Position numbers and translations under genes: made by a program
Origin: a virus
Direction: 5' to 3' (one strand)
Length of the DNA stretch: 53,391 nt
Virus record (IMG/VR): IMGVR_UViG_3300047409_000788
Location: 1-53,391 of that record
Part shown: piece by piece, positions 3,536 through 53,391 of the stretch
How positions within the stretch are numbered: the stretch's first letter is position 1
How the letters are laid out: each line of letters starts with the position of its first letter
The notes under the pieces: model-generated
Told to the model about the DNA's origin: nothing
The model's database searches: none
Seen by the model: the letters and a program-made list of their open reading frames with translations, nothing else

Positions 3536-3566
3536 GCTCATCTCCTGCATAGATGGGTGTGGTCAG

Positions 3567-37282: not shown

Positions 37283-37292
37283 GTGAGCGTGT

Positions 37293-38747
37293 ATGTCCGT
37301 CACCACACCGTCCCCGCCGCATCTGGAAGAGTATCTGGCGTTGCGCCAACTCTGGAAAGACGCGCCACGCCTCTACGTCAAGCAACGCTTTGGCGTGACA
37401 CCGACGTCGCAGCAGTATCAAATTCTTGATGCGATTGTGCCGCCTGGCGCGAAGGTGACGGTGCGGAGCGGGCATCTGACCGGCAAAAGCTCGGCAGCCT
37501 CATGGATCATTTTTTGGTTTTTAGAGACGTTTGACTTCTCGCGCATCCCATGCACCGCACCATCGGCTCACCAACTCACCGATGTGCTGTGGGCTGAATT
37601 GTCCAAGTGGCGCCGGGCCGCTGATGCATTGAGTGCCCAGCGGAAGGACCCCCGTAGGTTCTGGCTTTCTGCCCTGTTTACCTTGACGACCGAAAGCTTG
37701 TATGATCCTGGGGCCCGGGAATGGGGTGCGGTGGCCCGCACCGCCAAAAAGGAAAACCCCGAAGCGTTGCAGGGCATGCACGCCGAGCATATCTTATATG
37801 TGATCGATGAGGCATCCGGCGTCCCCGAGGAAGTGTATGAAGCGGCAGAAGGGGCGCTGGCGTCTCAGAACGCCCGCGTGCTGATGCTCGGCAACCCGAC
37901 CCGTACCACGGGCACGTTTCATGCCTCCCATCATCAAAACCGTCGGGAATATACGCCCCTCCATTTTCGCTCGCAGGATTCGACGCTCCCGACGGCAGAC
38001 CCGGATTACCGGCCCCGCCTCGTCCGCAAGTGGGGCGAAGGGTCGAACGTGGTCCGCGTCCGCGCCGACGGAGAGTTTCCCCGTCAAGAGGATGACGTCC
38101 TCATCTCCCTGGATCATACAGAGCCGTGCACCACGCGCGAGCCCCGGCCGGGGGAGGGCCGGCGGCGGCTGGGCGTGGACGTCGCCCGGCAGGGGAGCGA
38201 TCGCAGCGTCCTGGTCTTGCGCCACGGCGGCGTGGTGGAGCATATCCAGATTTTCAGCAAGCAAGACACGATGCACACCGTGGGCTGTATTGTCGCGGTC
38301 CTGGCGCCCTGGCAGGTGGAAGAGGTCGACGTCGACGTGATTGGCCTCGGCGCCGGCGTCTATGACCGCCTCGCCGAGCTGAAGCGGCAGGGGGCGATCT
38401 CCTGTGCCGTGCTGGCCGTCAACGTGGCGCAGGAGGCCCCGCCGGTCCGCCATCCGGCCGATGCCAAGCCGCGCCTCCTCCGGGATTTTCTGTGGCTGGA
38501 AATGGCGCGCTGGCTGCGAGAGGAGAGCCCGGTGTTCACCGCCAGCGATCGGGAGGCATGCCAGGACCTGGCCGGGGAACTGGCCACGGTGAAGTTTCAC
38601 CTGGATAGCAACGGGTGCGTGGTGATTGAAGACAAGGATGCGATGAAAAAAAGGCTGGGGATGAGCCCCGATCTGGCCGATGCGCTCGGCTGCACCTTCT
38701 GTCCCCCGGCCCCGCGGGGGGGACCCATTGCGGTGAGAGGGTATTAA
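37293..38747 (+). CDS. Terminase large subunit
   Basis: 484 residues. The ATPase part has a deviant Walker A (SGHLTGKSS, 59-67) and Walker B (HILYVIDEAS, 166-175). A coupling motif is likely at LGNPTRTTG (199-207). The RuvC-like nuclease has LGVDVARQGSDRS (293-305), IGLGAGVYDRL and a final acidic motif in SPDLADALG. It pumps DNA into the procapsid and cuts concatemers. It is the best phylogenetic marker in the window. Confidence 0.93.
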   Translation: MSVTTPSPPHLEEYLALRQLWKDAPRLYVKQRFGVTPTSQQYQILDAIVPPGAKVTVRSGHLTGKSSAASWIIFWFLETFDFSRIPCTAPSAHQLTDVLWAELSKWRRAADALSAQRKDPRRFWLSALFTLTTESLYDPGAREWGAVARTAKKENPEALQGMHAEHILYVIDEASGVPEEVYEAAEGALASQNARVLMLGNPTRTTGTFHASHHQNRREYTPLHFRSQDSTLPTADPDYRPRLVRKWGEGSNVVRVRADGEFPRQEDDVLISLDHTEPCTTREPRPGEGRRRLGVDVARQGSDRSVLVLRHGGVVEHIQIFSKQDTMHTVGCIVAVLAPWQVEEVDVDVIGLGAGVYDRLAELKRQGAISCAVLAVNVAQEAPPVRHPADAKPRLLRDFLWLEMARWLREESPVFTASDREACQDLAGELATVKFHLDSNGCVVIEDKDAMKKRLGMSPDLADALGCTFCPPAPRGGPIAVRGY

Positions 38748-38751
38748 CGCC

Positions 38752-40206
38752 ATGCCCGTCGATAGTCAACACCCCGCGTATGTCCGCTATTTTCCCCAAT
38801 GGCAACGCTGTCGGGATGTCATGGAAGGCACCGACGCGGTGAAGGGCCGGGCGACCGGGGACCAGGCCGTGCCGCATGGCAGTGGCACGGCCTACTTGCC
38901 GCAACCAAGTGGGATGCAGGCGAGGGACTATCAAGCCTATAAGACCAGGGCGGCGTTCTTTGGGGCCAGTGGCCGCGTGCGGCAAGGGCTGGAAGGTCTC
39001 ATCGAACGCAAACCGCCCGCCATCGTCGTTCCGCAGATGATTGAAGCGCATCTAGCCGATATTACGGGAACGGGGGTCAGCCTCCACGCCCTGAGTAGCC
39101 ATCTGATTACCGAGCATTTGACGACGGGGCGGATTGGGATTCTGGTGGACTTGCCCGAAGAGGACCAGGTGGCCGGGCAGGTGCGGCCGCGCTGGACGCT
39201 CGCGACCGCGGAGCAACTTATCAATTGGCGCCACATGCGGACCCCACTCGGCACGCAGGTCTATCGGCAAGTGGTCTTCGAAGAAGAGATCGACGAGGAA
39301 GACCCCACCGATCCCTATCGCCATCTCGTCATCCCGCAATGGCGGGAAACGGTCTTGGAAGACGGACACTATACCGTGCGCATTTGGCGCAAGGTCCAGG
39401 GCGTGACGGGGGAGACGTTTCTCCTCCGCGATGAGCGCCACCCCCATCGCCGGGGGACCCCGCTTGCGGCGCTCCCGGTCTTTATCCTCAACGCGGATTC
39501 GCTCGATATGACGCTCGGGCCGCCGCCGCTCTTGGATGTGGTGGATTTGAACCTGGCCCATTATCGGACGAACGCCGACTTTAAACATTCGCTGCACATG
39601 TCTTCCCTAGCCACGGCCTACATCACGGGTTGGGAGAATGAAGAGGCAGAAATGCGGGTGGGGGCCCTCACGGCGTGGGTGATTCCCCCCGCCGACGCCC
39701 GGGTGGGGTACCTCGAACCTTCCGGCGCGGGCTGGCAGGGGATGCAGGACGATATGCGCGCCACGGAGGCCCAAATGGCCGTATTGGGGGCGCGGCTCCT
39801 CGAACCGCAACGGCGGACGATCGAAGCGGCGGAAACGCATCAAATCCGGCAATCGGCCGAGCTGAGTATCATGGAAGCCTATGCGCTGGCCGCGTCGGCC
39901 CTCATCACCAAGGCGCTGCGGTGCCACGCCTGGTGGGCCGGGGCGACCGACGACCCCGACGATGCGGGCATTACCTTTACGCTCAATACCGATTTCCTCC
40001 CGACGACCATTGATGCCCCCACGCTGACGGCGTTGACCGCGGCCTGGCAGGCCGGCGCGGTGACCCAAGAAGACCTCTATTATAACCTGGTGCGCGGCAA
40101 TGTGGTCCAGCCGGGGGTGCCGTTTGCCGAGTGGCAGCGCACCCTCCAGGCGCAAGTGCCCGCGATTGACCCCCGCACGCTGGTCCCGGGCGCGCAGGAG
40201 TTCTAG
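38752..40206 (+). CDS. Portal protein, DUF4055 type
   Basis: 484 residues. HPAYVRYFPQWQRCRDVMEG opens the family pattern; RAAFFGASGRVRQGLEGLIE, ITEHLTTGRIGILVDLPE and PPLLDVVDLNLAHYRTNADF follow. DUF4055 proteins stand at the portal position in many siphoviruses. It starts four bases after the terminase stop. The portal ring joins head and tail and admits DNA. Confidence 0.85.
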   Translation: MPVDSQHPAYVRYFPQWQRCRDVMEGTDAVKGRATGDQAVPHGSGTAYLPQPSGMQARDYQAYKTRAAFFGASGRVRQGLEGLIERKPPAIVVPQMIEAHLADITGTGVSLHALSSHLITEHLTTGRIGILVDLPEEDQVAGQVRPRWTLATAEQLINWRHMRTPLGTQVYRQVVFEEEIDEEDPTDPYRHLVIPQWRETVLEDGHYTVRIWRKVQGVTGETFLLRDERHPHRRGTPLAALPVFILNADSLDMTLGPPPLLDVVDLNLAHYRTNADFKHSLHMSSLATAYITGWENEEAEMRVGALTAWVIPPADARVGYLEPSGAGWQGMQDDMRATEAQMAVLGARLLEPQRRTIEAAETHQIRQSAELSIMEAYALAASALITKALRCHAWWAGATDDPDDAGITFTLNTDFLPTTIDAPTLTALTAAWQAGAVTQEDLYYNLVRGNVVQPGVPFAEWQRTLQAQVPAIDPRTLVPGAQEF

Positions 40207-40210
40207 CGCC

Positions 40211-41206
40211 ATGCCCTTTCGCGTCACGTTCACCTATCAGCCCGCGCCCGCGGCCCGCCCCCCGGACCCGCGGCGGGCCGCCCTGGTCCTCCGGCTCCAG
40301 GCCCTCGCAGATCGGGCCACGACCCGCCTCCGCCAGCTCTGGCAGGGCGTCTTGACGGACCTGCACAGCGAGGGGAAGGGAATAGGGAATAGGGAGATAG
40401 GGAATAGGGAGATAGGGGGCGGGGGGAATCTCTCCCTACCTCCCTACCTCCCTACCTCCCTACCTCCCTCTTTCCCTTCCCCCCCGCTGACGGAACAAGG
40501 GGTGACCGGGATCATCGCCGCCGCCCTGACCCAGCCGGCGCAACGGCTCCTGCCGGTGGTGCTGGAGGAGGCGGTGGTGCGTGCGGGAACGCAGACCCTG
40601 GCCACGCTGGGCGTGGCCCTGCCCTTGCAGCCGGGGACGGCGGCGGTCCACCAGGCGATCGATGCGTATGTCGGGACGCAAATTCAGGCCATTAGCGAGA
40701 CGACCCGCGAGGCGATCCGCGCGGTCTTACAGACGGGATGGCAGACGGGCCAGCCGCTGGCGGAGGTCACGCGCGCGGTGCAGGCCGTCCTCGGGCTGAC
40801 CCCGCGCCAGGCCCAAACAGTCGCCCGGCTTCAGGCGCGGCTCACGGCGGAGGGGCGCACGCCCCTCCAGATTCAGCGGGCGGTCGCGACCGCCAGTCGG
40901 GTGGCGCTGCGCCAGCGGGCGTTGCAAATTGCCCGCACCGAAGCGCAGTATGCCAGCAATCTCGGGAGCCATCTCGCCCTCCTGCGGAGCGTGGACGCGG
41001 GGCTCCTGGACGCCCAGGCGGTGCGCCGGGTGTGGACGACGGCCGTCGATGAAGCCCTCTGCCCGGACTGTGCGCCGGTGCCGAGCATGAATCCGGACGG
41101 CGTGGGGGTGCAGGAGCCGTTTCATACGCCGCTCGGGGACACGCTGTTTCCCCCGCTCCATACAAATTGCCGCTGCGTGGCAGATACCATCTTTGCCTCG
41201 CAGTGA
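40211..41206 (+). CDS. Minor head protein, Mu F/SPP1 gp7-like
   Basis: 331 residues. The C-terminal half has the Mu F pattern: ALQIARTEAQYASNLGSHLA, then VWTTAVDEALCPDCAPV and PLHTNCRCVADT. It is thought to enter the head with DNA or help portal assembly. Residues ~54-94 are an in-frame low-complexity insert encoded by a purine/pyrimidine repeat (GNREIGNREIGG then a P/S/L-rich part). ATG 40211 is chosen because it lies two codons after the portal stop. Confidence 0.8.
   Translation: MPFRVTFTYQPAPAARPPDPRRAALVLRLQALADRATTRLRQLWQGVLTDLHSEGKGIGNREIGNREIGGGGNLSLPPYLPTSLPPSFPSPPLTEQGVTGIIAAALTQPAQRLLPVVLEEAVVRAGTQTLATLGVALPLQPGTAAVHQAIDAYVGTQIQAISETTREAIRAVLQTGWQTGQPLAEVTRAVQAVLGLTPRQAQTVARLQARLTAEGRTPLQIQRAVATASRVALRQRALQIARTEAQYASNLGSHLALLRSVDAGLLDAQAVRRVWTTAVDEALCPDCAPVPSMNPDGVGVQEPFHTPLGDTLFPPLHTNCRCVADTIFASQ
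40371..40493. repeat. Purine/pyrimidine short repeat inside the minor head gene
   Basis: Units of GGGAATA and GGGAGATA in tandem, followed by several copies of CTCCCTAC and a C/T-rich end. The two halves are partly complementary and could fold back. Total ~123 bases, in frame. Related sequence at 1343-1364. Confidence 0.7.
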
Positions 41207-41219
41207 GGAGACGAATGTC

Positions 41220-41459
41220 ATGAGTGACGTCCCCCTTGCGCCGTGTCTGCTCTGCCATGCAACCACCTCGCTCACGGTGCAGGCCGCCCGTGATCCCTTC
41301 TTCGGGACCGCCGCCGTCCCGGAGGGCGTCTCTCCGGCAGGGTGGGCCGTGCGGTGTACCGCGTGTGCCCTCCGTGGTCCCTGGCGCGCCACGGCGGCCG
41401 CCGCCCGCCAGGTCTGGAATGTACAGGTGGCCCCCAAAACCATAGACAAGGAGGAGTGA
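41220..41459 (+). CDS. Lar-like zinc-ribbon protein, 79 residues
   Basis: CLLCHATTSLTV and VRCTACALRGPW form two C-x2-C knuckles, followed by AAARQVWN. This is the pattern of Lar-type restriction-alleviation proteins and of Com-like zinc ribbons. Lar dampens host type I restriction; that role is inferred. Start at ATG 41220, soon after the minor head stop. It lies between head genes. Confidence 0.6.
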   Translation: MSDVPLAPCLLCHATTSLTVQAARDPFFGTAAVPEGVSPAGWAVRCTACALRGPWRATAAAARQVWNVQVAPKTIDKEE

Positions 41460-41462
41460 GCC

Positions 41463-42236
41463 ATGGCCCTCAAAGGGTCGTTTGACCATCCGGATGATGC
41501 CCCAGAGTTTTTACGAGACCATGTCGTCGAGAAAGAGGGGAAATGGGTGCTCGATGTTGAGGGTTATGTCAGCAAGGAGACCCTCGACTCGTTTCGGACG
41601 AATAACCGCCAACTGAAGAATGAAGGGGATAAGCTGAAAAAAGACCTCGAACTCCTGCACAAACAATTCACCGACACGGAGACGCGCTATGCGGGCGTGG
41701 ACCCGGAGGAATATCGGGCGATGAAGGCCGCCCCAACGGATGTACAGAAACAGATTGCGGAAGCCGAGGCGCGGCTCAAAGCGAGCTATGAGAAAACCTA
41801 TGGGGAACAGTTCGCCCGCGAACAAGCGCGCACCAAAGAAGCCGAGGCCAAATTCCATCACGCCCTCATCGCCAACGAGGTCGCCCTGGCGGCGCCGGGC
41901 GTGGGGGTCCAGGAGACCGCCCTGGAAGACCTCCAGACCCGCGCGTCCCGCGTCTTCCGCGTCACCGAGGGCAAGGTGGTCCCCTTCCGAGGGGAAGACC
42001 CGCTGTATAGCGAGAAAGAGCCCTCGCAATTTCTCAGTATGAAAGAATGGCTGGGGGGCTTGCAAAAAGAGTATCCCCACTATTTCAAACCGAGTGCGGG
42101 CGGCGGCGCCGGCGGCGGCTTGGGGGGCCGCAGCCAGAACGGCCGGCCCGTTATCCCGGCGAGCGATCAACGCGCCTTCATTGCCCGGCTGGAGGATATC
42201 GCCTCGGGCAAGGTCGAGGTCGATCTGAACGCCTAA
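41463..42236 (+). CDS. Capsid scaffold protein
   Basis: 257 residues. GFVDHPDD-like start, then a long charged coiled coil (residues ~40-140; LKNEGDKLKKDLELLHKQFT, AEARLKASYEKTYGEQFARE) and a glycine-rich linker (GGGAGGGLGG). The C-terminal helix includes AFIARLEDIASGKVEV. This is the standard layout of scaffold proteins that lie just before the major capsid gene. GAGGAG precedes the ATG. No capsid gene follows here. Confidence 0.82.
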   Translation: MALKGSFDHPDDAPEFLRDHVVEKEGKWVLDVEGYVSKETLDSFRTNNRQLKNEGDKLKKDLELLHKQFTDTETRYAGVDPEEYRAMKAAPTDVQKQIAEAEARLKASYEKTYGEQFAREQARTKEAEAKFHHALIANEVALAAPGVGVQETALEDLQTRASRVFRVTEGKVVPFRGEDPLYSEKEPSQFLSMKEWLGGLQKEYPHYFKPSAGGGAGGGLGGRSQNGRPVIPASDQRAFIARLEDIASGKVEVDLNA

Positions 42237-42266
42237 GCGCCGGGCGGCGGCCTGGGGCGGCTGGCG

Positions 42267-42294
42267 TTGACATGATGAACGACTAGGTTATACT
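42267..42294 (+). promoter_or_regulatory. Consensus sigma70 promoter
   Basis: TTGACA (42267-42272), a 16-base spacer, TATACT (42289-42294). The predicted start is at or next to the ATG at 42301, so the mRNA would have almost no leader. Good match to consensus on both boxes. Confidence 0.75.
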
Positions 42295-42300
42295 GAGGCT

Positions 42301-42639
42301 ATGACAGAACATCATCTCCACATTCACCTCGACGTATTCGCCCTCGCTGAGGAGCTACGTCAAGGCTTTGCGCAACTGACCACCACCCTGACAAGACTAG
42401 GAGAGCATATGAGTGACGCTGCCGACGCGTTGACCGCTGCCGTGACGGGCATGCAAGAGCGCCTCGATACGCTCAACACCACGATCCAAACCGAAGTGCA
42501 GCAAATTACCGCGGCCCTGACCACTGCCGGCACGGATCAGGCGCTGCGGGATGCCGCGGCCCTGGCGGTCGACCGGCTCAACGCCATGGGCCAGCAGGTG
42601 GACGCGTTTAATACCACGGTCCAGGATATCATCGCATGA
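42301..42639 (+). CDS. Coiled-coil hypothetical protein, 112 residues
   Basis: MTEHHLHIHLDVFALAEELR then a long helix with regular T/A/L spacing (TAAVTGMQERLDTLNTTIQT, EVQQITAALT). No family recognised; similar small coiled-coil proteins are found near phage head genes. It follows a consensus promoter with essentially no leader. Confidence 0.65.
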   Translation: MTEHHLHIHLDVFALAEELRQGFAQLTTTLTRLGEHMSDAADALTAAVTGMQERLDTLNTTIQTEVQQITAALTTAGTDQALRDAAALAVDRLNAMGQQVDAFNTTVQDIIA

Positions 42640-42977
42640 CCTCCCCTGAGGCCATTCTCTCTGAAGAAGCCCTTGAACGCATTGGCTGGTTTGCCGCCCA
42701 AGCCAGCCAACCGCCCGTGTCCGTGATCCAGGTTCCTGATGACTATGACCCCGTCGAATGGTGCCAAGATGCGCTGTTGCGTACCGTAGGGGAGCGCTGT
42801 TACGGGGTGGCCCTCGGCACAGCGGAGACGGTGCAAGGCGGGGTCGCTCTCATGACCGCCTTCACCGGCAATGGGTCGGCCAGTCTCGCCAATGCCAATT
42901 TCTATATGCTCTGCCATACGGCCATCCCCTTGCTGATCGAAGAGATACGGCGCTTGCGCCGCAAGAGCGATACGTAG
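42636..42977 (+). CDS. Hypothetical protein, 113 residues
   Basis: MTSPEAILSEEALERIGWFA, DDYDPVEWCQDALLRTVGER and FYMLCHTAIPLLIEEIRRLR. Start overlaps the previous stop by four bases (ATGA). Helical; no family recognised. Last gene of this small operon; a palindromic hairpin follows at 43019. Confidence 0.6.
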   Translation: MTSPEAILSEEALERIGWFAAQASQPPVSVIQVPDDYDPVEWCQDALLRTVGERCYGVALGTAETVQGGVALMTAFTGNGSASLANANFYMLCHTAIPLLIEEIRRLRRKSDT

Positions 42978-43018
42978 CAGCGGGCCGCGTTCATCAGCGT
43001 CCATGTTCGCTCCTTCTA

Positions 43019-43036
43019 GGGGGCCGTACGGCCCCC
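43019..43036 (+). terminator. GC-rich palindromic hairpin after the plus-strand operon
   Basis: GGGGGCCGTACGGCCCCC is a perfect 18-base palindrome 42 bases after the stop of the 113-residue gene. No T-run follows, so termination is uncertain. A TATAAT at 43119-43124 downstream may serve the next gene. Confidence 0.45.
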
Positions 43037-43149
43037 GTGGGGTGGGTTAGTCGTACACGAGATAGGCTTTCCGGCACACGACGTGCGTTCTTGAAGTGGG
43101 TGATACGGTATCGCACCATATAATAGCATGCCGCAAGAGAAAGGCCCCC

Positions 43150-43467
43150 ATGCCCAAATTTCAGATTGATGCGTGTTCCCCCATCCACGAATGCCTTCCG
43201 CTCTGTCGTGCGGACGAGCATATGTATTTGCTTCACATTGATAAGGACTGTCGCTATGGGGAACAGGACGTGCTGGCGGCGGCAAAGACCCCGGAGCTGA
43301 CGGCATTTATGGGCATAACGCCACGACGGGTACGTCGGGCACTCGAAGCGGATAAGATGTCCACAGATGCGCCAGACCCGCAACGGTACCAAGAGGCGTG
43401 GCTCGTCTTTGGGGTCTTGGTCTCCACCTGTAAGCAACTGCTGCCAGGAGAGGATGCGTCTCTGTGA
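43150..43467 (+). CDS. Hypothetical protein, 105 residues
   Basis: MPKFQIDACSPIHECLPLCR, then EHMYLLHIDKDCRYGEQDVL and TPRRVRRALEADKM. Four cysteines. No family recognised. ATG 43150 is 25 bases after a TATAAT -10 box (43119-43124). It is coupled to the next gene by a GTGA overlap. Confidence 0.55.
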   Translation: MPKFQIDACSPIHECLPLCRADEHMYLLHIDKDCRYGEQDVLAAAKTPELTAFMGITPRRVRRALEADKMSTDAPDPQRYQEAWLVFGVLVSTCKQLLPGEDASL

Positions 43468-43694
43468 CCCCACAACAGGCCTTCGTCAAGCTCGAAATTG
43501 CCATCCCCTTCGCGCTATGGCACACATGGGACACGGATGAGGGGCTGTTGGCAACCCTCCAAGCCCATGGGCTGTTCCCGCAGGGGATCGACCGTCGTGC
43601 CTGGACCTATCGCACACGCGTCGACGGCGCCAACCAGACCTACATTGTGGCACTCGCCGTCGGCTTCCCGCTGCCAGCCAAGGCGCAGGTATGA
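43464..43694 (+). CDS. Hypothetical protein, 76 residues
   Basis: GTG start overlapping the previous stop by four bases. MTPQQAFVKLEIAIPFALWH, then RAWTYRTRVDGANQTYIVAL. No family recognised. Last gene before convergent minus-strand genes. Confidence 0.5.
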   Translation: MTPQQAFVKLEIAIPFALWHTWDTDEGLLATLQAHGLFPQGIDRRAWTYRTRVDGANQTYIVALAVGFPLPAKAQV

Positions 43695-43736
43695 AGCCGC
43701 TCCCGGCGGCTGGGCTTTCGCTAGAGCGAAGTGTCA

Positions 43737-44012
43737 CTATTGGAGGCAGAGCGGGCATCCATCCCCATCGACGCTCTTGGCCGTACTGGCCTCTAAGAGC
43801 CGGTCACTCCATTGTCGCGCCAGACACGCCGAGCCCTCCCGCCCGACAACCCCCAGAGGGTAGACACTAGCGTGCAGAATCTCTTCCTCGGTCACCGCTG
43901 GCCAGCAGCGGCGCACATCGGCGATGGTCAATGGCTCCCGATAGGTCGTCAACCACGTGACAACAGCCTCGATCGCTTCCTGCGCGTGGGCAACGGTGTG
44001 AATGCAGGCCAT
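43737..44012 (-). CDS. Hypothetical protein, 91 residues
   Basis: MACIHTVAHAQEAIEAVVTW, then a helix-turn-like part (TIADVRRCWPAVTEEEILHA) and a C-terminal CPLC. GGAGGAG precedes the ATG. It is the last gene of the minus-strand small-gene run. No family recognised. Confidence 0.6.
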   Translation of the reverse strand: MACIHTVAHAQEAIEAVVTWLTTYREPLTIADVRRCWPAVTEEEILHASVYPLGVVGREGSACLARQWSDRLLEASTAKSVDGDGCPLCLQ

Positions 44013-44026
44013 ACTGGCTCCTCCTG

Positions 44027-44043
44027 CGGGGGCGCAGCCCCCG
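44027..44043. repeat. Intergenic hairpin 1 of the small-gene run
   Basis: CGGGGGC/GCCCCCG, 7-bp stem with a 3-base loop, between the 67- and 91-residue genes. One of six boundary hairpins in this run. Confidence 0.6.
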
Positions 44044-44069
44044 GGTGGTGGTTTCGCCGATGAAGCTGG

Positions 44070-44273
44070 TTACTCTTGCTCTGTATCGACAGACTCGATT
44101 TCCGTACTATCGACCGCAAATAGGATGGCGTCTCTGCCATTCTTCCTCGTGGGATATTCAGCCGTCAAGCCCTGGTCAAGGGAGCCATAGACGTAGACCA
44201 GGGTGCCGATGGCGAAGTGACGACCCTCGTCAGTGTCAATGGGCTTCGTGAGGCGCATAGGGTGCTTGTTCAT
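44070..44273 (-). CDS. Hypothetical protein, 67 residues
   Basis: MNKHPMRLTKPIDTDEGRHF, then GTLVYVYGSLDQGLTAEY and an acidic end (STEIESVDTEQE). Small beta-rich protein; no family recognised. AGGAGAACG precedes the ATG. Confidence 0.6.
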   Translation of the reverse strand: MNKHPMRLTKPIDTDEGRHFAIGTLVYVYGSLDQGLTAEYPTRKNGRDAILFAVDSTEIESVDTEQE

Positions 44274-44312
44274 GATCGTTCTCCTGTGTGTGGGGCCGCA
44301 CGGGCGTCAGGA

Positions 44313-44338
44313 CGCGTACACGTCATTTCGTGTACGCG
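44313..44338. repeat. Intergenic hairpin 2 of the small-gene run
   Basis: CGCGTACAC/GTGTACGCG, 9-bp perfect stem with an 8-base loop, upstream of the 67-residue gene. Confidence 0.65.
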
Positions 44339-44350
44339 AAAGGACGGCGG

Positions 44351-44569
44351 CTAATAGTGGTTGCTCTCCTCGCCGAGCGCTTCTCGCACCGCATGGGCTC
44401 GGATACGCTCGGCGGTCTCGTCGGTCCAGAGCTCGAGGCACACCCCGCATTCCCATACCGGCAAAACAAGATGAAGCGTGGGACCACCGAGCAGCGGGAT
44501 CGCCTGCTCACGGTGGGTCACGGTTGCCTCATTACACGTGCCACAGAATGGACACACTATTGTTGCCAT
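44351..44569 (-). CDS. Zinc-ribbon hypothetical protein, 72 residues
   Basis: MATIVCPFCGTCNEATVTH has one zinc knuckle (CPFC) and VWECGVCLELWTDE the second, as in YgiT/MqsA-like zinc ribbons. AAGGAGG precedes the ATG. In those families the ribbon can be part of an antitoxin, but no toxin partner is evident. Confidence 0.6.
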   Translation of the reverse strand: MATIVCPFCGTCNEATVTHREQAIPLLGGPTLHLVLPVWECGVCLELWTDETAERIRAHAVREALGEESNHY

Positions 44570-44591
44570 GGCCTTCCTCCTTTGTGTGTAA

Positions 44592-44616
44592 GGGGGAGCA
44601 GCCTCCCTGCTCCCCC
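44592..44616. repeat. Intergenic hairpin 3 of the small-gene run
   Basis: GGGGGAGCA/TGCTCCCCC, 9-bp stem, 7-base loop, with flanking GTGTGTAAG. Almost identical to the hairpin at 45071-45093. Confidence 0.7.
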
Positions 44617-44625
44617 GGTGGCGGC

Positions 44626-44823
44626 TCAGGCGCCCTCGCGCGCCTGTCTGCCTTCGTGTTTGCCGTGCCAGTAGGCGAGCCACCACTGGCTCTCGTCCTC
44701 GACCTCCTCGGGCACATCCGGCGTGTGCCCAGCCTCCTCGACCGGCCCTTCGAGGGCCTCGACATAGCCCAGGCGGTAGGCCTGCGGATAGGCGGCGCAG
44801 CTCGTACAGTGGGGCTCAGGCAT
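44626..44823 (-). CDS. Hypothetical protein, 65 residues
   Basis: MPEPHCTSCAAYPQAYRLGY, then an acidic middle (DVPEEVEDES) and WWLAYWHGKHEGRQAREGA. C-x2-C near the start. The ATG overlaps the previous stop by eight bases. No family recognised. Confidence 0.55.
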   Translation of the reverse strand: MPEPHCTSCAAYPQAYRLGYVEALEGPVEEAGHTPDVPEEVEDESQWWLAYWHGKHEGRQAREGA

Positions 44824-45046
44824 GGCAGTCACCGTCACAGACCGTGTGGCAGCGTGGGCAGAGCGTCCCCGTCACGACCGGGCGCACGAGCCGCCAGCCG
44901 TACACGCCGGGGGCGCGGAGCATCGCCTGCGCCTGGGCGGTGTCAGGCAGTGTCCAGGTGCGACCGTCGAAACGGCCCCCCACCTTGCGAGCGTTGGCGA
45001 CGCCCCTGGAAAACATCTGGCCGCTGGCTATCGTAATGGTGGCCAT
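44816..45046 (-). CDS. Hypothetical protein, 76 residues
   Basis: MATITIASGQMFSRGVANAR, then GRFDGRTWTLPDTAQAQAML and a C-terminal CPRCHTVCDGDC cluster that may bind zinc. GAGGAGAG precedes the ATG. No family recognised. Confidence 0.6.
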   Translation of the reverse strand: MATITIASGQMFSRGVANARKVGGRFDGRTWTLPDTAQAQAMLRAPGVYGWRLVRPVVTGTLCPRCHTVCDGDCHA

Positions 45047-45070
45047 CCTCGTCTCTCCTCTGTGTGTAAG

Positions 45071-45093
45071 GGGGAGCAGCCTCCCTGCTCCCC
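45071..45093. repeat. Intergenic hairpin 4 of the small-gene run
   Basis: GGGGAGCA/TGCTCCCC, 8-bp stem, same loop and same GTGTGTAAG flank as the hairpin at 44592-44616, so it is a duplicated 5' element. Confidence 0.7.
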
Positions 45094-45100
45094 AGTGGCG

Positions 45101-45748
45101 TTACCGGCCTTTGCACCACCCCTCAGCGGTCTTGTGGGACCACCAGGAGCGGCCGTCCTTCCCCTGATTCAGTTTCATCGGCGTGGCGTGGGGGACACAC
45201 CACCCGTCCGGTGTCGGCTGGGCGCCGTGGGGCACGCTCGGCGGACTGGCCGGTGCCGCCGGCGTCTCCATCAGGCCCTCGATCTGGGTGAGGTGTGCCT
45301 GGAACTCCGCCCACGTGGTGCCGCGCGCCGTCAGCAGCGCGTCTCTGCCGCGCACGGTCCCTTTCAGCGTGATCGAGAACGTGGCTTCCGGCATCGACGC
45401 CGCCGTGCGAGGGGCGGGTGACGCCGTCGGCTCCTCCAGGCTGGGCGTCGTGCTGGGTTCCTGGAGCCGGGCGGTGGCCCGCAGGTACAGGCCGCGCGCC
45501 AGCCGATGCTTGCACAGGTGTTCGGGGGCCTGCAGGTCGCCACAGGCGCAATGCCCGTTGACGGTGTACCAGGTCGTGTCATCACTGGCGCGCACCTGGC
45601 ACAGGCCGGCATCGTCGAAGAAGACGCCGCCGTGCAGGACGATGGCGGTGGCCCGCTCTAAGCGGCCATGGAGCGTGGCCGGCAACTTGGCGGAAGCAAT
45701 CGCGGACACCTGCAAAAGTGCGTCGAGGAACGGGGTTGCGGTCGCCAC
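45101..45748 (-). CDS. SWIM zinc-finger protein, 215 residues
   Basis: The SWIM motif GHCACGDLQAPEHLCKHRLA (C67, C69, C79, H81) is clear; SWIM domains bind DNA or protein. The upstream half (MATATPFLDALLQVSAIASA) is helical. The C-terminus GWCVPHATPMKLNQGKDG then RSWWSHKTAEGWCKG looks like a second zinc-ribbon. GTG start with AAAGGA upstream. It is the largest gene of the run and may act in plasmid DNA handling. Confidence 0.75.
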   Translation of the reverse strand: MATATPFLDALLQVSAIASAKLPATLHGRLERATAIVLHGGVFFDDAGLCQVRASDDTTWYTVNGHCACGDLQAPEHLCKHRLARGLYLRATARLQEPSTTPSLEEPTASPAPRTAASMPEATFSITLKGTVRGRDALLTARGTTWAEFQAHLTQIEGLMETPAAPASPPSVPHGAQPTPDGWCVPHATPMKLNQGKDGRSWWSHKTAEGWCKGR

Positions 45749-45767
45749 GGTCAGGTCCTTTCTCTGG

Positions 45768-45788
45768 GCCGGGGCTCTTCACCCCGGC
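45768..45788. repeat. Intergenic hairpin 5 of the small-gene run
   Basis: GCCGGGG/CCCCGGC, 7-bp stem with a 7-base loop, upstream of the SWIM gene. Confidence 0.6.
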
Positions 45789-45828
45789 ATCGTTCGGTTG
45801 TCGAGCGTTCTCTTGTACTCATGATAGG

Positions 45829-46062
45829 CTACCGCAGGGCTGCCAGGGCCGCTGTCACTAATGCCTGCTGGGAGACGTTTTCCTGCAATCCGTATTCACT
45901 CCAACTCCAGCCGCGTCCCTCGTCCTGCCGCAGCGTGATGCTCTCGGCCACATACCGGGCGCGCTGCGCCGGCGTGGTGGTGTGGGTCATGGCCCGGCGG
46001 TGCAAACGCCGGGCCGCTGCAGCGGACTTGTCAGAGGAGATCGTCTCGTGTAAAGTATGCAT
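45829..46062 (-). CDS. Hypothetical protein, 77 residues
   Basis: MHTLHETISSDKSAAAARRL, then a basic helix (TPAQRARYVAESITL) and a C-terminal helix. AAGGAAA precedes the ATG. No family recognised. Confidence 0.55.
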   Translation of the reverse strand: MHTLHETISSDKSAAAARRLHRRAMTHTTTPAQRARYVAESITLRQDEGRGWSWSEYGLQENVSQQALVTAALAALR

Positions 46063-46100
46063 GATCTTTTCCTTCTGGTTGGGGGGAAGGGTGCTTTTCG

Positions 46101-46139
46101 GGGCCTGGGGGAAGCCGCCAAGCTGAAACCCCCAGGCCC
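46101..46139. repeat. Intergenic hairpin 6 of the small-gene run
   Basis: GGGCCTGGGGG/CCCCCAGGCCC, an 11-bp perfect stem with a 17-base loop, upstream of the 77-residue gene. Confidence 0.7.
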
Positions 46140-46178
46140 GCGCTGTCTCTCGTGGCTCATCCAACCTGACGCTCTGAT

Positions 46179-46415
46179 CTACACGTCTTCCCGCATTGTG
46201 CCCGCCGCAAACCGTGCCTGGATGGTCGTCAGGTCCCATCGGGTGACGCCCGTGACGCCATACGCCTGTTGCCGGAGCGTGCTCACCTCGATATGGACCT
46301 GGGGGCCGGCAGGACTGGCCACCCGCCGGACACGGTCAACCACATAGATGGTATCCAGGGGCGTCCCGCGCTGGGTGAGGTCCTGAATCTTCATGCCGAC
46401 TTTCAATGTTGCCAT
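46179..46415 (-). CDS. Hypothetical protein, 78 residues
   Basis: MATLKVGMKIQDLTQRGTPL, then TIYVVDRVRRVASPAGPQVH and TLRQQAYGVTGVTRWDLTTI. Beta-rich. First gene of the run, with AAGGAGAG upstream. It follows a ~180-base leader (46416-46600) with a short hairpin and no other gene seen. Confidence 0.6.
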   Translation of the reverse strand: MATLKVGMKIQDLTQRGTPLDTIYVVDRVRRVASPAGPQVHIEVSTLRQQAYGVTGVTRWDLTTIQARFAAGTMREDV

Positions 46416-46605
46416 GATCGTCTCTCCTTGTCTGTGGTGTTATGAGGTTTCGTCGTTTTCGACTTATCAATACGGGTACACACCCGCAGACCTCCTGTCG
46501 TCTTGGCCTGTCCCTCCTTCCCCCGTGGCTTCTCAGTGTTGAGCCCACTTGTCCCAGAGTCGGAAGCGGCACCCGCTTGCGCGGTCGCTGTTCTGTTATG
46601 CTCTA

Positions 46606-46634
46606 ATAATAACGTATACGTAATTACCATGCAA
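46606..46634 (-). promoter_or_regulatory. Sigma70 promoter of the small-gene run
   Basis: Minus strand: -35 TTGCAT (46634-46629), a 17-base spacer, -10 TATTAT (46611-46606). The spacer contains the perfect palindrome ACGTATACGT (46612-46621), a likely repressor site. Divergent from the XRE promoter. Confidence 0.7.
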
Positions 46635-46678
46635 GGGATTTCTGTATCAAAATGAGGTTTTTTGTGTAGAAATTTTTC

Positions 46679-46707
46679 TCGACACACGCTAACGTAGGCG
46701 CTATACT
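46679..46707 (+). promoter_or_regulatory. Sigma70 promoter of the XRE regulator
   Basis: -35 TCGACA (46679-46684), a 17-base spacer, -10 TATACT (46702-46707). Start expected near 46714, at the first base of the operator. Confidence 0.75.
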
Positions 46708-46714
46708 CTTTTCT

Positions 46715-46743
46715 AGTATTTGCTAGATGTTCTAGCAAATACT
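46715..46743. promoter_or_regulatory. Operator: perfect 13-bp inverted repeat
   Basis: AGTATTTGCTAGA, three bases, then TCTAGCAAATACT: perfect dyad. It covers the predicted transcription start of the XRE gene, so autorepression is likely. Confidence 0.75.
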
Positions 46744-46766
46744 GTCACCTATGCGTGAGGAAAAGC

Positions 46767-47105
46767 ATGCCAAGAGGGAGCGGCATGGATGATCACGAGG
46801 TTATGCTACTTTTCGCCGAACGCGTTGCGCAGGCGAGAGACAAACGCGGCTGGAGCCAGCAACGGCTGGCCGAGGAAGCCCGCACGACGTATCAAACGAT
46901 TTGGCGCATTGAGAAAGGATCGCATAAGGATGTCGGGATGCTACTCGTGCGGCGGTTAGCCCAGGCATTAGGGGTAGGTGTGGATCGGCTTATTGGAACC
47001 TATGAGGACTCTAGCCGGCGGGCCGGTAGCGACCAGGGTGGCACCGAGTGCGCTACCGGCAAAACCAAGACCACTCTTGAGAGAGAGGTCTTGCAGGGAG
47101 TATAG
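46767..47105 (+). CDS. XRE-family transcriptional repressor
   Basis: 112 residues from MPRGSGMDDHEVMLLFAERV. The helix-turn-helix is at about residues 20-75 (GWSQQRLAEEARTTYQTIWR, IEKGSHKDVGMLLVRRLAQA). ATG 46767 has GAGG upstream; the ATG at 46785 is also possible. It is preceded by its own promoter and operator and is divergent from the small-gene run, so it probably represses both. It is followed by a second regulator three bases later. Confidence 0.82.
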   Translation: MPRGSGMDDHEVMLLFAERVAQARDKRGWSQQRLAEEARTTYQTIWRIEKGSHKDVGMLLVRRLAQALGVGVDRLIGTYEDSSRRAGSDQGGTECATGKTKTTLEREVLQGV

Positions 47106-47107
47106 CA

Positions 47108-47743
47108 ATGTCGAAACGTGGCGGCTATATCTATGCTATAGGTATGCAGGAAACGTCCTATGTGAAAATCGGAAGTACGCGAGCACCTATAGCAAAACGT
47201 ATGCAAGAACTGCAAGTTGCACATCCACTCCCCTTGGAAACATTGGCCGTCATAGAAGTCGAGTCCGATCTTGCGCGTATTGAGGCTCAGGTCCATAAGT
47301 TTCTCGCCAAAGAATGGCAACGGGGGGAATGGTTTGACACGGTGATGAATCCTGACCGGCTGGCTCTTTTGGTCAAGGATGCCGTTAGGGTCGTCCTTGA
47401 AGAAGGCGCTACCCATCCTGTACGTAAATCGCCGAGAGATTTTCCTCTGGGACGACGACTGAGGCTAGTACGGCGTGCAAAGAATTACACCCAGCACGAG
47501 CTTGCACAGATGTCCGGGATGAATGCGATTTCTCTTTCACGGCTGGAATCCGGCAATGCGGAGCATGCCTATGCTCGCACGGTACGTGATCTCGCCCAGG
47601 CGCTTGGGGTAAGTGCTGATTATCTGCTGGGATTGACGGAGGAGTCAGGGATGGAACACTCGGAAGAGGCCGCCGCTGAAGCGCTGGTTGGGGCCGGAAC
47701 TTCAGCGGCAGACGATGCCCTCACGAACGAGGGCATCGCGTAG
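47108..47743 (+). CDS. T5orf172/GIY-YIG-like domain fused to XRE HTH
   Basis: 211 residues. N-terminal ~80: GYIYAIGMQETSYVKIGSTR, KRMQELQVAHPLPLETLAVI and HKFLAKEWQRGEWFDT, the pattern of T5orf172/MUG113, a GIY-YIG-type nuclease fold. Residues ~115-180 are an XRE HTH (NYTQHELAQMSGMNAISLSR, LAQALGVSADYLLGLTEES). The rest is acidic and flexible. It begins three bases after the first repressor. The fusion could be a regulator with a degenerate or active nuclease. Which catalytic residues are kept cannot be judged by eye. Confidence 0.75.
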   Translation: MSKRGGYIYAIGMQETSYVKIGSTRAPIAKRMQELQVAHPLPLETLAVIEVESDLARIEAQVHKFLAKEWQRGEWFDTVMNPDRLALLVKDAVRVVLEEGATHPVRKSPRDFPLGRRLRLVRRAKNYTQHELAQMSGMNAISLSRLESGNAEHAYARTVRDLAQALGVSADYLLGLTEESGMEHSEEAAAEALVGAGTSAADDALTNEGIA

Positions 47744-49296: not shown

Positions 49297-50433
49297 ATGG
49301 CGGTCTACCATGTCGATGCCAGTTACATTTCGAAAGGCAAAAGTGAGGGCGGAGCCAGTCGGTTTTCTGCCTACTTGGAACGGCGAGACCCCGAACACGC
49401 AACCCAGCATGCGCGGTACTTAGCACGGGATGGGAAAGGGCAGGAGGACTTGGTGGCAAGTGCATCGGCGTATCTTCCCCAATGGGCCAAAAATGGAGAG
49501 GGGTTTTGGTTGGCCGCAGATCGGTATGAACGCCAAAATGGCGTGGTCGCGCGTGTGTATCAATTTACCTTGCCACGGGAATTGTCAGCGGAGGGACAGC
49601 GCGCCTTGGCAGATGATTTACGAGCGGTGTTTTTTGAGGGCTACCCCCAGACGTGGGCTATTCACAATCCCCCGGCGCAGGATGGGTCAGGCGAGAACGC
49701 CCACTTGCACATCATGTTTTCGACACGAAGGGAGGAGGAAACACGGACAGGTGGCCCAAAGGTATGGTTTAGTCGCGCGGCGAATGCAGGACAGGATGCG
49801 AGGAGTGGAGGTGTCAGAAAAGATGGATGGTGGGATCAAAAGGCCGCCCTGCAGGGCGTGCGATATGAAACGGCCATTCTCATCAATGCGGCCCTAGAGA
49901 GGGAGGGGATAGCGAAAGCGGTGTCGCATGATCGGTTGCGAGGGCAAGGACACCAACGACAAGGAGTGCACTACCTTCAGTTTGGCAAGGCTGAGCAGCG
50001 GTCGAGGCTGCTTGCCAAGCAAGAAGCCTTGCATACGAACGGCACCCATAAGCAAGAAGAAGCGGCTGCGCGGCAGGCATGGGAAGACCAGAAAAGAAAG
50101 GAGGGGCTGAGTATATTGAGTCGAGAGCATCTCGTGGCATCATCCCGTGCCCGGTACTGGGCGCATCATCCTGACCCTAGGAGGATACGTCCACAGGAAT
50201 GGGAAGCGCGGCGCATCGACCTTACCGACGCCTTCGCCCAGACGCAGACGCGCCTCCACACCCTCGACGCCCAGGCGCGACTCCTGACGCGGATGGTGGG
50301 CCAGGCGCCGGCGCCTGGGGGCACGCCGGCCGCACGGCCGGCGCACGCCGTCGAGGAGGAGGAGACCCAGGGCATCCAGCGGGGCCGCCCCCGGCTCCAC
50401 ATCTTTGACGAGGAGGTCGGCTATGGCCGATAG
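49297..50433 (+). CDS. mobA: MobA/MobL-family relaxase
   Basis: 378 residues. HVDASYISKGKSEGGASRFS is the family start, with the probable catalytic tyrosine in this N-terminal segment (Tyr10 or Tyr4). YQFTLPRELSAEGQRALADD follows. The metal-binding histidines are in ENAHLHIMFSTR (His136, His138) with His123 upstream. It nicks oriT and leads the transferred strand (MOBQ type). The C-terminal ~130 residues are basic and less conserved. Its stop overlaps the coupling protein start by 11 bases. Confidence 0.9.
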   Translation: MAVYHVDASYISKGKSEGGASRFSAYLERRDPEHATQHARYLARDGKGQEDLVASASAYLPQWAKNGEGFWLAADRYERQNGVVARVYQFTLPRELSAEGQRALADDLRAVFFEGYPQTWAIHNPPAQDGSGENAHLHIMFSTRREEETRTGGPKVWFSRAANAGQDARSGGVRKDGWWDQKAALQGVRYETAILINAALEREGIAKAVSHDRLRGQGHQRQGVHYLQFGKAEQRSRLLAKQEALHTNGTHKQEEAAARQAWEDQKRKEGLSILSREHLVASSRARYWAHHPDPRRIRPQEWEARRIDLTDAFAQTQTRLHTLDAQARLLTRMVGQAPAPGGTPAARPAHAVEEEETQGIQRGRPRLHIFDEEVGYGR

Positions 50434-53233
50434 CTGGGGCGCTAAGGGCATCGCCGTGGGGGCCGGGCTGCTCTGCGGCCTCAGTCTCGCCACGGAACTC
50501 TTCGCCTATCACGCGCGCCTGTCCCCCGTCCTGGGGCCGCCGCTGTGGCGCCAGAGTCTCCTGGCGTTCTACCCCCCGTGGGCGGTCCTGGGGTGGGCGT
50601 GGCAGTGGGCCGGCCGGGTGCCGGCGGCGTTTCAGTGGCCCCTGGTGGCCGGGGTGGTGCTCGCCGGGGTGACGATCGCGAAGACCTGGCCACGGGCGCG
50701 GAGCACGACCCAGCCGCAGGCGCACTGGGCAAGTTGGGTCGAACTGAAAAAGGCCGAGCTGCTTGGGCGCACAGGCGTGGTGCTCGGCACGAGCGGGAGA
50801 GCCCTCCTCCAGTATGGGGGCGTGGGGCACATCCTCGTGGTGGCGGGGACGCAATGCCACGCCCCAGGGGCAAAGATTCTCATGGGGGATGGAGCCCTCA
50901 AATGCGTTGAAACGATTACGGTAGGTGACAAGGTAATGGGGCCTGACTCATTGCCGCGCACAGTGCAGGCGCTGTTCCACGGGGATGGGGAGATGGTAAG
51001 GATTCTTCCCAAGAAGGGCGAGCCTTTTACCGTGAGTCTTGACCATATCCTCGTTCTTAAGCGCACAAACAAGATACGCTATGCCCATAACCCCGTCTAT
51101 CCCCGCGCAAGCAAGGAAGGAGAAATTGTCGAAATATCGGTGCGGGATTGGCTTGCATCAAGCAAGAAATTCAAGCACCTCTATAAGCTATTTCGGGTAG
51201 GCGTTGAGTTTCCTATGCAGGAGCCTCTCCCTATCGACCCCTATTTACTTGGGGTCATTCTGGGCGACGGCACTATACGCCGCTACGGTGTCGTTATCAC
51301 CAATAACAATAAGGGGAGGTTAAAGCGAAAGATTGCAAGCATTCTCGATAAAACAGATTTGCATATCTCTGGTGCATATAATGACCAGCGCAATGGTACG
51401 CACACCTTTGCGATCACCTCCCGAACAGTAGCGAGGCATCCAGGCAATGGAAAAAACAGAATCCTTCGGTGGGGCAGGGAGCATAATAGCCTGACCAAAG
51501 CTCTGAAAGCGCTCGGCCTGGCGGGAGCACGGTCTGGAACAAAATTTATCCCAGGGATATACAAAGTGGCGAGCAAAGAAGCCCGGCTATGGATATTAGC
51601 TGGGCTCATGGACACCGATGGCTCCCTATCTGGTAGCAACCTCAAGTGCCTCGCAAAAAACTACGACTACATTACGAAATCTCAGGCATTGGCCGACGAC
51701 GTCTGTTTTATCGCCAGAAGTCTGGGGTTGGCGGCATACAAAAAGGAGTGTGAGAAAGGATATAAGACCGCATCTAGTGCCTTCCGTGCGACGTACTATC
51801 GCGTGTCTATTTTTGGCAATACCAGCACCATTCCATGCCAAATAGAAAGTAAACAAGTGCGACTAAGGAGGCGCCAATGGGGACACCCCCATCTCTACGA
51901 GAAGACCCAGAAGCTTGAGTATAAGCATTCCCCGCTTGTGACGGGGTTTACGGTAGAGGCGGCTGGAGTAGGTCCATGCTGCGGGGTGACCTGTGACGGG
52001 GATCAGCGCTACCTCATGGGTGATTTTACGGTCACGCATAACAGCGGGAAGACCGTCTCGATTGTGCTGCCAACCTTGCTGGCGGAAGAACCAGGGCAGG
52101 CACGGTCCATGATTGTCCATGACCCGAAGGAAAACCTGTACCCGAAGTCGGCGGGCTATCGGAGTACGCTAGGGAAGGTGGTACGGCTGGCCCCGTTGCA
52201 TCCGGAGACCGACTTTCTCAATCCCTGGGATGCCGTGCGGCTGGGCACCGAGGATGAATTCCGTGATGTGGAACTCATTGCGACTTACCTCACGAACCCG
52301 GAAGGCAAGGCCAGCCGGGATGATGTCACGGAGCATTTTCAGGAACTGGTCAACCAGTTTTTCTGCGGCGTCTTTCTCTATGGGCTGCATACCGGCATCG
52401 CGACCACGGGCGGGGCGTTTAACGACCTCGTGAACGGGACGGCCTGGCGCGACCTCCTCACCGTCATGGAGGCCCATGGGCACCCGGAAGTCCAGCGGGC
52501 GGCCGTGATTGCCTCACGGCCGGGGGACAGGGAGCTCGGCGCCTTACAGACGACGGCGGCCCGGGCCCTCCGCATCTTTAGTGACCCCCGGATTGCCCAC
52601 ATGACGAGCACGAGCAGTTTCAGTCTGGCGGAGTTACGCGAGGCGGAGCAGCCGTGCACCGTCTACCTGAGTGTCCCCTTTGGGGACCAACAACGGTTGC
52701 GCCCCCTCACGCGGCTCCTCTTACGGCAGTTGCTGGACCATTGTACGTCCAGGTTGCATGGCTGGAAGCACCGCATGCTCGCCATGATCGAGGAGTTTCC
52801 GTCGTTGGGGCGCTTTGACCCTATCAGTGACGGACTCAACTTTGCCGCCGAGTTTGGGCTGCAATACTGCTTAATTACCCCGAGCATGGAGGAACTGATT
52901 GACACCTACGGCAATCACCACAACCTGCTGGAGGGCTGTCGCGTGCAGGCGGTTTTTGGCCTCAGCGACGACGCCACGGCCAAACGCTTTAGCGGACGCG
53001 TTGGCACCCGGGAGCGCCGCACCCAACGGATCACAACCCAGCAAGGAGGGAGGCAGAGTCGTACAGAAGACGTGAAGGAGGAGCCCCTGCTGAACGCCAC
53101 CGGCTTTCTCGACCTGGGGGAGCGAGAGGTGGCCGTGTTTGCGGGCCGCTACAAGGTGATTTGTGAACAAAGTCGTTATTACGAGCACAAAGACTGGGCA
53201 CGGCGGGCCTTGCTCCCGCCGCCCAGGCCATGA
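50423..53233 (+). CDS. traG: VirD4/TraG coupling protein interrupted by an intein
   Basis: 936 residues before splicing. Two N-terminal membrane segments (~residues 8-25 and ~35-90), then GVGHILVVAGTQ (~133-144), an intein of 396 residues (145-540), and SGKTVSIVLPTLLA. Joining the flanks gives AGTQSGKT, an intact Walker A. Walker B is in MLAMIEEFPSLGRF. It couples the relaxosome to the type IV secretion channel at the inner membrane. ATG 50423 with GAGGAGG upstream; a longer frame from 50405 is less likely. The mature host protein would be ~540 residues, shorter than VirD4 of Ti plasmids but within the family range. Confidence 0.92.
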   Translation: MADSWGAKGIAVGAGLLCGLSLATELFAYHARLSPVLGPPLWRQSLLAFYPPWAVLGWAWQWAGRVPAAFQWPLVAGVVLAGVTIAKTWPRARSTTQPQAHWASWVELKKAELLGRTGVVLGTSGRALLQYGGVGHILVVAGTQCHAPGAKILMGDGALKCVETITVGDKVMGPDSLPRTVQALFHGDGEMVRILPKKGEPFTVSLDHILVLKRTNKIRYAHNPVYPRASKEGEIVEISVRDWLASSKKFKHLYKLFRVGVEFPMQEPLPIDPYLLGVILGDGTIRRYGVVITNNNKGRLKRKIASILDKTDLHISGAYNDQRNGTHTFAITSRTVARHPGNGKNRILRWGREHNSLTKALKALGLAGARSGTKFIPGIYKVASKEARLWILAGLMDTDGSLSGSNLKCLAKNYDYITKSQALADDVCFIARSLGLAAYKKECEKGYKTASSAFRATYYRVSIFGNTSTIPCQIESKQVRLRRRQWGHPHLYEKTQKLEYKHSPLVTGFTVEAAGVGPCCGVTCDGDQRYLMGDFTVTHNSGKTVSIVLPTLLAEEPGQARSMIVHDPKENLYPKSAGYRSTLGKVVRLAPLHPETDFLNPWDAVRLGTEDEFRDVELIATYLTNPEGKASRDDVTEHFQELVNQFFCGVFLYGLHTGIATTGGAFNDLVNGTAWRDLLTVMEAHGHPEVQRAAVIASRPGDRELGALQTTAARALRIFSDPRIAHMTSTSSFSLAELREAEQPCTVYLSVPFGDQQRLRPLTRLLLRQLLDHCTSRLHGWKHRMLAMIEEFPSLGRFDPISDGLNFAAEFGLQYCLITPSMEELIDTYGNHHNLLEGCRVQAVFGLSDDATAKRFSGRVGTRERRTQRITTQQGGRQSRTEDVKEEPLLNATGFLDLGEREVAVFAGRYKVICEQSRYYEHKDWARRALLPPPRP
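50855..52042 (+). other. Intein with LAGLIDADG endonuclease, in Walker A of the T4CP
   Basis: 1188 bases, 396 residues. The first residue is Cys (CHAPGAKILMGDGALKCVET), matching intein block A; the N3-like block is around PFTVSLDHILVLKR. The endonuclease has YLLGVILGDGT and WILAGLMDTDGS. The end reads YLMGDFTVTHN then Ser, the expected terminal His-Asn and +1 nucleophile. In frame throughout. A nearby DNA motif of the insertion (ACG CAA / AGC GGG AAG) encodes a universal Walker A segment. Confidence 0.93.
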
Positions 53234-53248
53234 CAGGAGGTGGACCCA

Positions 53249-53391
53249 TGTTCGTAGGGAGCGCGTGGGCAGCGGCCTCGGCGATTCCGATTGCCGCCAC
53301 CATCAACATTTTAGTCCTGGCCGTGCAAGCGGCCGGCGGGGGCTTTATCGCCCTGAAATGCCTCTACCTGGGCATCACCTGGCGCCGGGGG
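53249..53391 (+). CDS. Partial membrane protein, start of the next transfer gene
   Basis: 47 codons to the window edge. MFVGSAWAAASAIPIAATIN then a second hydrophobic segment ending LGITWRRG. GGAGG precedes the ATG 15 bases after the coupling protein stop. The position suggests a mating-channel subunit (pilin-like or TrbC-like), but the sequence visible is too short to say. Confidence 0.55.

Follow-up and report, generated by a model that had tools for sequence, protein, structure and literature searches.

A P-loop intein in the coupling protein of a phage-like contig bearing conjugation genes

Phage and conjugation genes in the window

The window (the whole stretch of DNA analysed here) is an IMG/VR virus record of 53391 bases. 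Its phage genes encode a tail fibre J-like protein, tape measure, tail tube, terminase large subunit (TerL), portal and head morphogenesis proteins, and they are accompanied by genes for a relaxase and a coupling protein (T4CP) and by the start of a hydrophobic ORF (Table 1). This ORF start lies in the same place as a small TrbC-like ORF that follows the T4CP gene of a second virus contig, IMGVR_UViG_3300011409_000288, referred to below as L030. A 39-nt direct repeat, 97% identical (44577-44615 and 45055-45093), lies between the head and conjugation genes. Elsewhere in the window we noted, all on the (−) strand, an AIR synthase-related (PurM-like) gene that is likely an auxiliary metabolic gene on the phage (130-1239), a gene within the phage tail region whose product has a pair of HNH_3 endonuclease domains (25793-26734), and a second LAGLIDADG protein, apparently free-standing and without a Hint domain (2774-3550), whose gene has a short DNA match to the motif 2 region of the intein described below.

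The T4CP frame is open throughout 50405-53233 on the (+) strand, with an ATG at 50423. In profile searches the exteins, the parts of the protein on either side of the insert, matched T4SS-DNA_transf (PF02534, 4e-45) and TraG-D_C (PF12696, about 3e-13), and by NCBIfam they are nearest to IncP-type TraG, with a score under the curated cut-off. By eye, the N-terminus of the N-extein is hydrophobic, as expected for TraG. The Walker B motif of the window T4CP reads MIEEF, with Glu replacing the usual Asp, and that of the L030 T4CP reads MIDEV; because of this replacement the window protein's own activity is not certain. The two T4CPs are conserved across the ATPase part. The L030 protein, 45% identical over the C-extein, reads through the insertion site uninterrupted as ATTQSGKT, with which the joined AGTQ and SGKT of the window T4CP align, showing that an empty site exists in a relative.

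Table 1. Features of the window that bear on the intein and its host gene
Feature	Position	Strand	Basis
Terminase large subunit	37293..38747	+	phrog_2 6e-34
Phage portal protein	38752..40206	+	phrog_145 3e-106; DUF4055
MobQ/MobA-type relaxase, adjoins T4CP	49297..50433	+	PF03389 3e-19; NF041496 MobQ 2e-19
T4CP N-extein, 144 aa from ATG, ends VVAGTQ	50423..50854	+	ORF; alignment to uninterrupted L030 T4CP
P-loop first half, AGTQ	50843..50854	+	
Class-1 intein, 396 aa, Cys1...His395-Asn396, embedded LAGLIDADG endonuclease	50855..52042	+	profile matches, alignment, model
LAGLIDADG motif 1, YLLGVILGDG, catalytic-type Asp present	51242..51271	+	alignment
LAGLIDADG motif 2, LAGLMDTDG, catalytic-type Asp present	51596..51622	+	alignment; LAGLIDADG_3 match
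P-loop second half, SGKT	52043..52054	+	
T4CP C-extein, begins at Ser+1 of SGKT; PF02534, TraG-D_C, Walker B-like MIEEFPSLG	52043..53233	+	
Hydrophobic TrbC/VirB2-like ORF start, truncated by window end	53248..53391	+	position and composition only, no significant match

The insert in the P-loop is an intein

Within this single open frame, the P-loop of the T4CP is split as AGTQ/SGKT by an insert of exactly 396 aa. The junctions read VVAGTQ / CHAPGAK...GDFTVTHN / SGKTVSIVLPTLL, with CAA and AGC as the flanking codons, and the splice residues are Cys1, a C-terminal His-Asn (TVTHN) and Ser+1. The insert matched Hom_end_hint (PF05203, 1e-16) and LAGLIDADG_3 (PF14528, 7e-7) in profile searches, and these matches, together with the predicted model, indicate a Hint fold with two LAGLIDADG motifs. 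When 38 intein homologues were aligned, the window intein kept all 31 invariant columns, including C1, H64, the Gly-Asp-Gly and Asp residues of LAGLIDADG motifs 1 and 2 respectively, H395 and N396, which led us to reject chance as the origin of the ORF; we also considered, and rejected, an ordinary insertion domain for 50855-52042. Block B reads SLDH, where the His is the invariant His64 and the Ser stands where most relatives show Asn. The ORF, the profiles and the alignment thus bear out the original prediction of a 396-residue LAGLIDADG intein with Cys1, a His-Asn end and Ser+1 at exactly the AGTQ/SGKT junction.

The AlphaFold2 model of the intein had a mean pLDDT of 88 and a pTM of 0.88. 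When Foldseek compared it with the PDB, the leading matches were without exception structures of the yeast VMA1 intein PI-SceI (6e-24), which phmmer also matched at 3e-14. PI-SceI is the best solved match in both fold and sequence, although it shares only ~19% identity with the window intein and its host protein differs. Judged by sequence and predicted structure, the insert is a genuine, well-preserved P-loop intein. Its GC3 of 0.57 is below the values of 0.88 and 0.76 for the two exteins, which is consistent with separate acquisition.

Relatives of the intein in phage helicases and a VirB4 protein

We found the closest relative of the window intein in the VirB4/TrbE protein of L030 (44% identity by tblastn, 50% in the MAFFT alignment). 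Here too the contig is phage-like and the host protein is a conjugation ATPase, interrupted at the same P-loop position (AGPVG/SGKST); that protein, however, is VirB4, and it is the T4CP of that element that is uninterrupted. To compare positions we designated the point before the residue preceding GK, used in the window, as site A and that between GK and the next residue as site B. Among the best 80 IMG/VR relatives, 61 were at site A and 16 at site B, while three were not assigned, one of them being a P-loop variant at site A; the recognisable hosts among these 80 were mostly helicases.

A 41-intein tree grouped the inteins of the window, L030 VirB4 and L033 (helicase-like) in one clade (97/94), and pairing just the first two as sisters had mixed support (94/45). 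The window intein is grouped with phage helicase and TerL inteins (clade support 100/99) and not with the other T4CP inteins. This clade includes the inteins of the DarB-like/ResIII helicases of phiHSIC, E. coli phage PJ16 and Agarilytica plasmid pSU2, and that of the TerL of Aeromonas phage pIS4-A. The phage helicase and pIS4-A TerL inteins share with the window intein the position x/[S/C]GK, Cys1, the HN end and LAGLIDADG, but their hosts are helicases or a terminase and their identity to it in the alignment is 34-48%. Explaining the site labels on the tree takes six or more changes, which suggests that this family is mobile with respect to both insertion site and host. P-loop inteins a and b, one residue apart, are described in mycobacteriophage TerL1 (PMC5050341); these are P-loop ATPase inteins like that of the window, but in terminase hosts. 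According to the same source, K/T P-loop insertion and the preference of inteins for ATPases are already known, and phages have been proposed as intein vectors (PMC5050341).

We also noted that the Ser+1 codon, AGC in the window (at the start of the second P-loop half, 52043-52054), is TCA in the uninterrupted L030 T4CP, and that AGY is common among helicase hosts. Co-conversion during ectopic homing could explain the AGC, a single observation.

Inteins in other coupling proteins and conjugation ATPases

Querying PLSDB with the intein of IncC TraD, we found P-loop inteins at GK/T in IncC TraD (pKAZ5 plus five further plasmid records), in the TraG of the actinobacterium Brachybacterium and in a protein resembling DotL/TrbC that the megaplasmid of M. 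extorquens AM1 encodes. In Pseudomonas and Xanthomonas plasmids, the GK/T inteins of DotL are mini-inteins of 145-150 aa without an endonuclease, and VirB4-like or type IV pilus-type ATPases with P-loop inteins are also present in PLSDB. The IncC TraD, DotL and Brachybacterium inteins resemble that of the window in occupying the P-loop of conjugation or T4B coupling proteins, but they differ in lying at GK/T rather than x/SGK, in beginning with Ala or Pro rather than Cys, and in forming a separate clade. On these grounds (Cys1, a site before SGKT, a separate clade) we rejected an Ala1-type GK/T intein as the identity of the insert in the window.

Several features of these plasmid inteins are recorded here in their own right. 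The IncC traD intein (L003 pKAZ5, L011 pN069_1) is 369 aa, Ala1-type and at GSGK/T, and the DotL mini-inteins (L016, L017) start with Pro, not Cys, Ser or Ala. Among VirB4-like ATPases (L018, L005), that of a Bifidobacterium longum plasmid has a 566-aa intein at GSGK/T and that of a Curtobacterium plasmid has an intein directly behind a Walker B-like VVIIDPK. Other plasmid ATPases also carry inteins (L021, L019), including a Euzebya protein with apparently two inteins (one P-loop region). The intein is present in 6 of the 976 records matching IncC-type traD, and in the other 970 the match does not cover it; in the best of these the match makes up 63% of the query at 98% identity. In the E. coli plasmid NZ_AP028311.1, the intein-bearing traD is additionally broken by an IS3-type insertion.

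A second T4CP with a site-A intein was found neither in 84,980 species genomes nor in 2.9 million viral contigs, scanned with a DNA pattern that covers mainly IncP-type TraG. This strict pattern, HN/[STC]GK...P[TN]L, recovers the window itself. It gave zero matches in the viral contigs and a single one in the genome contigs, in a Clostridia MAG, which was antisense and was set aside as chance, as were all four matches of two looser Ser+1 patterns. Used alone, the extein half of this pattern picked up 3/3 proteobacterial IncP-type TraG genes and only one Firmicutes T4CP locus, and it missed the L030 T4CP, so that the negative result is limited mainly to IncP-type TraG. We found no papers on T4CP inteins, nor any account of conjugation motors as intein hosts, in the open-access literature searched, a set outside which the main intein census lies. 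According to the original prediction, an intein is not known to have been reported at this site in a VirD4/TraG protein. For the exact site this stands within a scan of mainly IncP-type TraG, while the GK/T inteins of IncC TraD, DotL-type proteins and actinobacterial TraG mean that T4CP inteins as a kind are not unique, and the claim of novelty holds only in part. What is new is the T4CP as a host type for this intein lineage, and an apparent hop between conjugation motors.

A second contig with packaging and conjugation genes

L030 is a 59.6 kb virus contig from a metagenome other than the window's. Its phage and replicon genes encode TerL (phrog_38, 2e-64), a ParB-like protein, a replication initiator and a primase/helicase, and its conjugation genes encode a MobA/L relaxase, the uninterrupted T4CP, VirB4/TrbE, TrbL, VirB8 and TrbI; a CagX-like gene matched under Pfam's cut-off. 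The relaxase, the T4CP and several other genes resemble those of the window, the relaxase-T4CP order recurs in both, and one gene of the window's phage tail region has a homologue in L030 (45% over 166 aa). The window portal was looked for in L030 and not found, and portal and capsid genes were unrecognised there. Searches of viral contigs for homologous loci with the whole T4CP and with the relaxase found nothing.

Two contigs from two metagenomes thus combine phage packaging genes with a relaxase and a T4CP, and both are possible conjugative phage-plasmids. An alternative that would be compatible with the intein reading is that the phage and conjugation parts of the window were misassembled or belong to separate replicons, the T4CP with its intein coming from an ordinary conjugative plasmid. 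An independent contig, L014, is 99.98% identical to the window over 37206-47509 only and ends before the relaxase gene (49297), so from that contig the junction of phage and conjugation genes has no independent confirmation. Against misassembly, L030 joins a terminase, relaxase, T4CP and Trb operon to homologues of genes in the phage part of the window, and we consider this alternative unlikely.

Discussion

We think it probable, from sequence and modelling, that the insert is a complete class-1 homing intein belonging to the P-loop family known from phage helicases, probably competent to splice, which invaded the Walker A motif of the T4CP of a phage or phage-plasmid with conjugation genes. 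Following class-1 intein chemistry, the T4CP would be made as a precursor in which Cys1 begins an acyl shift, the ester would pass to Ser+1 and Asn396 would cyclise. The ligated chain would carry a continuous AGTQSGKT, restoring Walker A. The unspliced T4CP would presumably be unable to bind ATP, and the junction inside the P-loop supports the earlier proposal that the precursor has no usable Walker A. The host presumably tolerates the intein because splicing is efficient. Alleles that lack the intein may be cut by the LAGLIDADG enzyme in or close to the codons of the P-loop, after which repair would copy the intein in. Conservation of P-loop DNA across ATPases could then account for a family whose insertion position is shared by helicases, terminases, VirB4 and the window T4CP.

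The original prediction further suggested that splicing efficiency could act as a switch for DNA transfer, a claim made from the locus without its context in a phage genome with conjugation genes, or its kinship with phage helicase inteins and a VirB4 intein. As such a switch, splicing would answer redox, metals, ssDNA or host entry and so gate conjugation. Insertion in the P-loop does tie ATPase activity to splicing, redox state or metals could act on the cysteines of the intein, Cys1 among them, and there is documented precedent for conditional splicing in other P-loop or recombinase inteins, with zinc for the mycobacterial DnaB intein (PMC7360933) and with ssDNA for the P. horikoshii RadA intein (cited in PMC8987985). 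Nothing that we tested points to regulation, however, and no regulatory feature was found. That the L030 T4CP is intein-free, and that 970 of 976 IncC-type traD matches do not cover the intein, suggests that systems of this kind work without one. An intact endonuclease and relatives scattered over unrelated ATPases are what selfish homing predicts and fit it better than a switch, which we regard as quite improbable. The same low expectation applies to a broader scheme in which, in a phage or phage-plasmid lineage with a complete conjugation operon of its own, P-loop inteins hop between T4SS ATPases (T4CP, VirB4) and conditional splicing couples DNA transfer to host state. Least likely of all is that the intein now splices poorly, the T4CP gene is dead and the conjugation genes are phage passengers: the Walker B Glu, the Ser of block B and, elsewhere, the IS3 element in one of six intein-bearing IncC traD genes would agree with decay, but the frame is long and open on either side, every invariant intein position is kept, the ATPase part is conserved relative to L030 and the relaxase-T4CP order recurs.

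Since its closest known relative occupies the same loop of another conjugation motor in a related virus contig, the intein appears to be a selfish element that moves between ATPases. Besides the window's, at least three T4CP types in public sequences have P-loop inteins, as do VirB4-like proteins, and T4CP P-loop inteins overall occupy two positions and belong to two intein lineages. Such inteins in T4CP and VirB4-like proteins suggest that the T4SS motor is a recurrent intein target. Conjugation and co-infection unite intein-plus and intein-minus alleles, which suits homing, and IncC traD, with six matching records that carry the intein and 970 that do not, is a natural plus/minus set bearing on intein cost or transfer regulation. 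The host element is also of interest, as phage-like contigs bearing a relaxase, T4CP and Trb genes.
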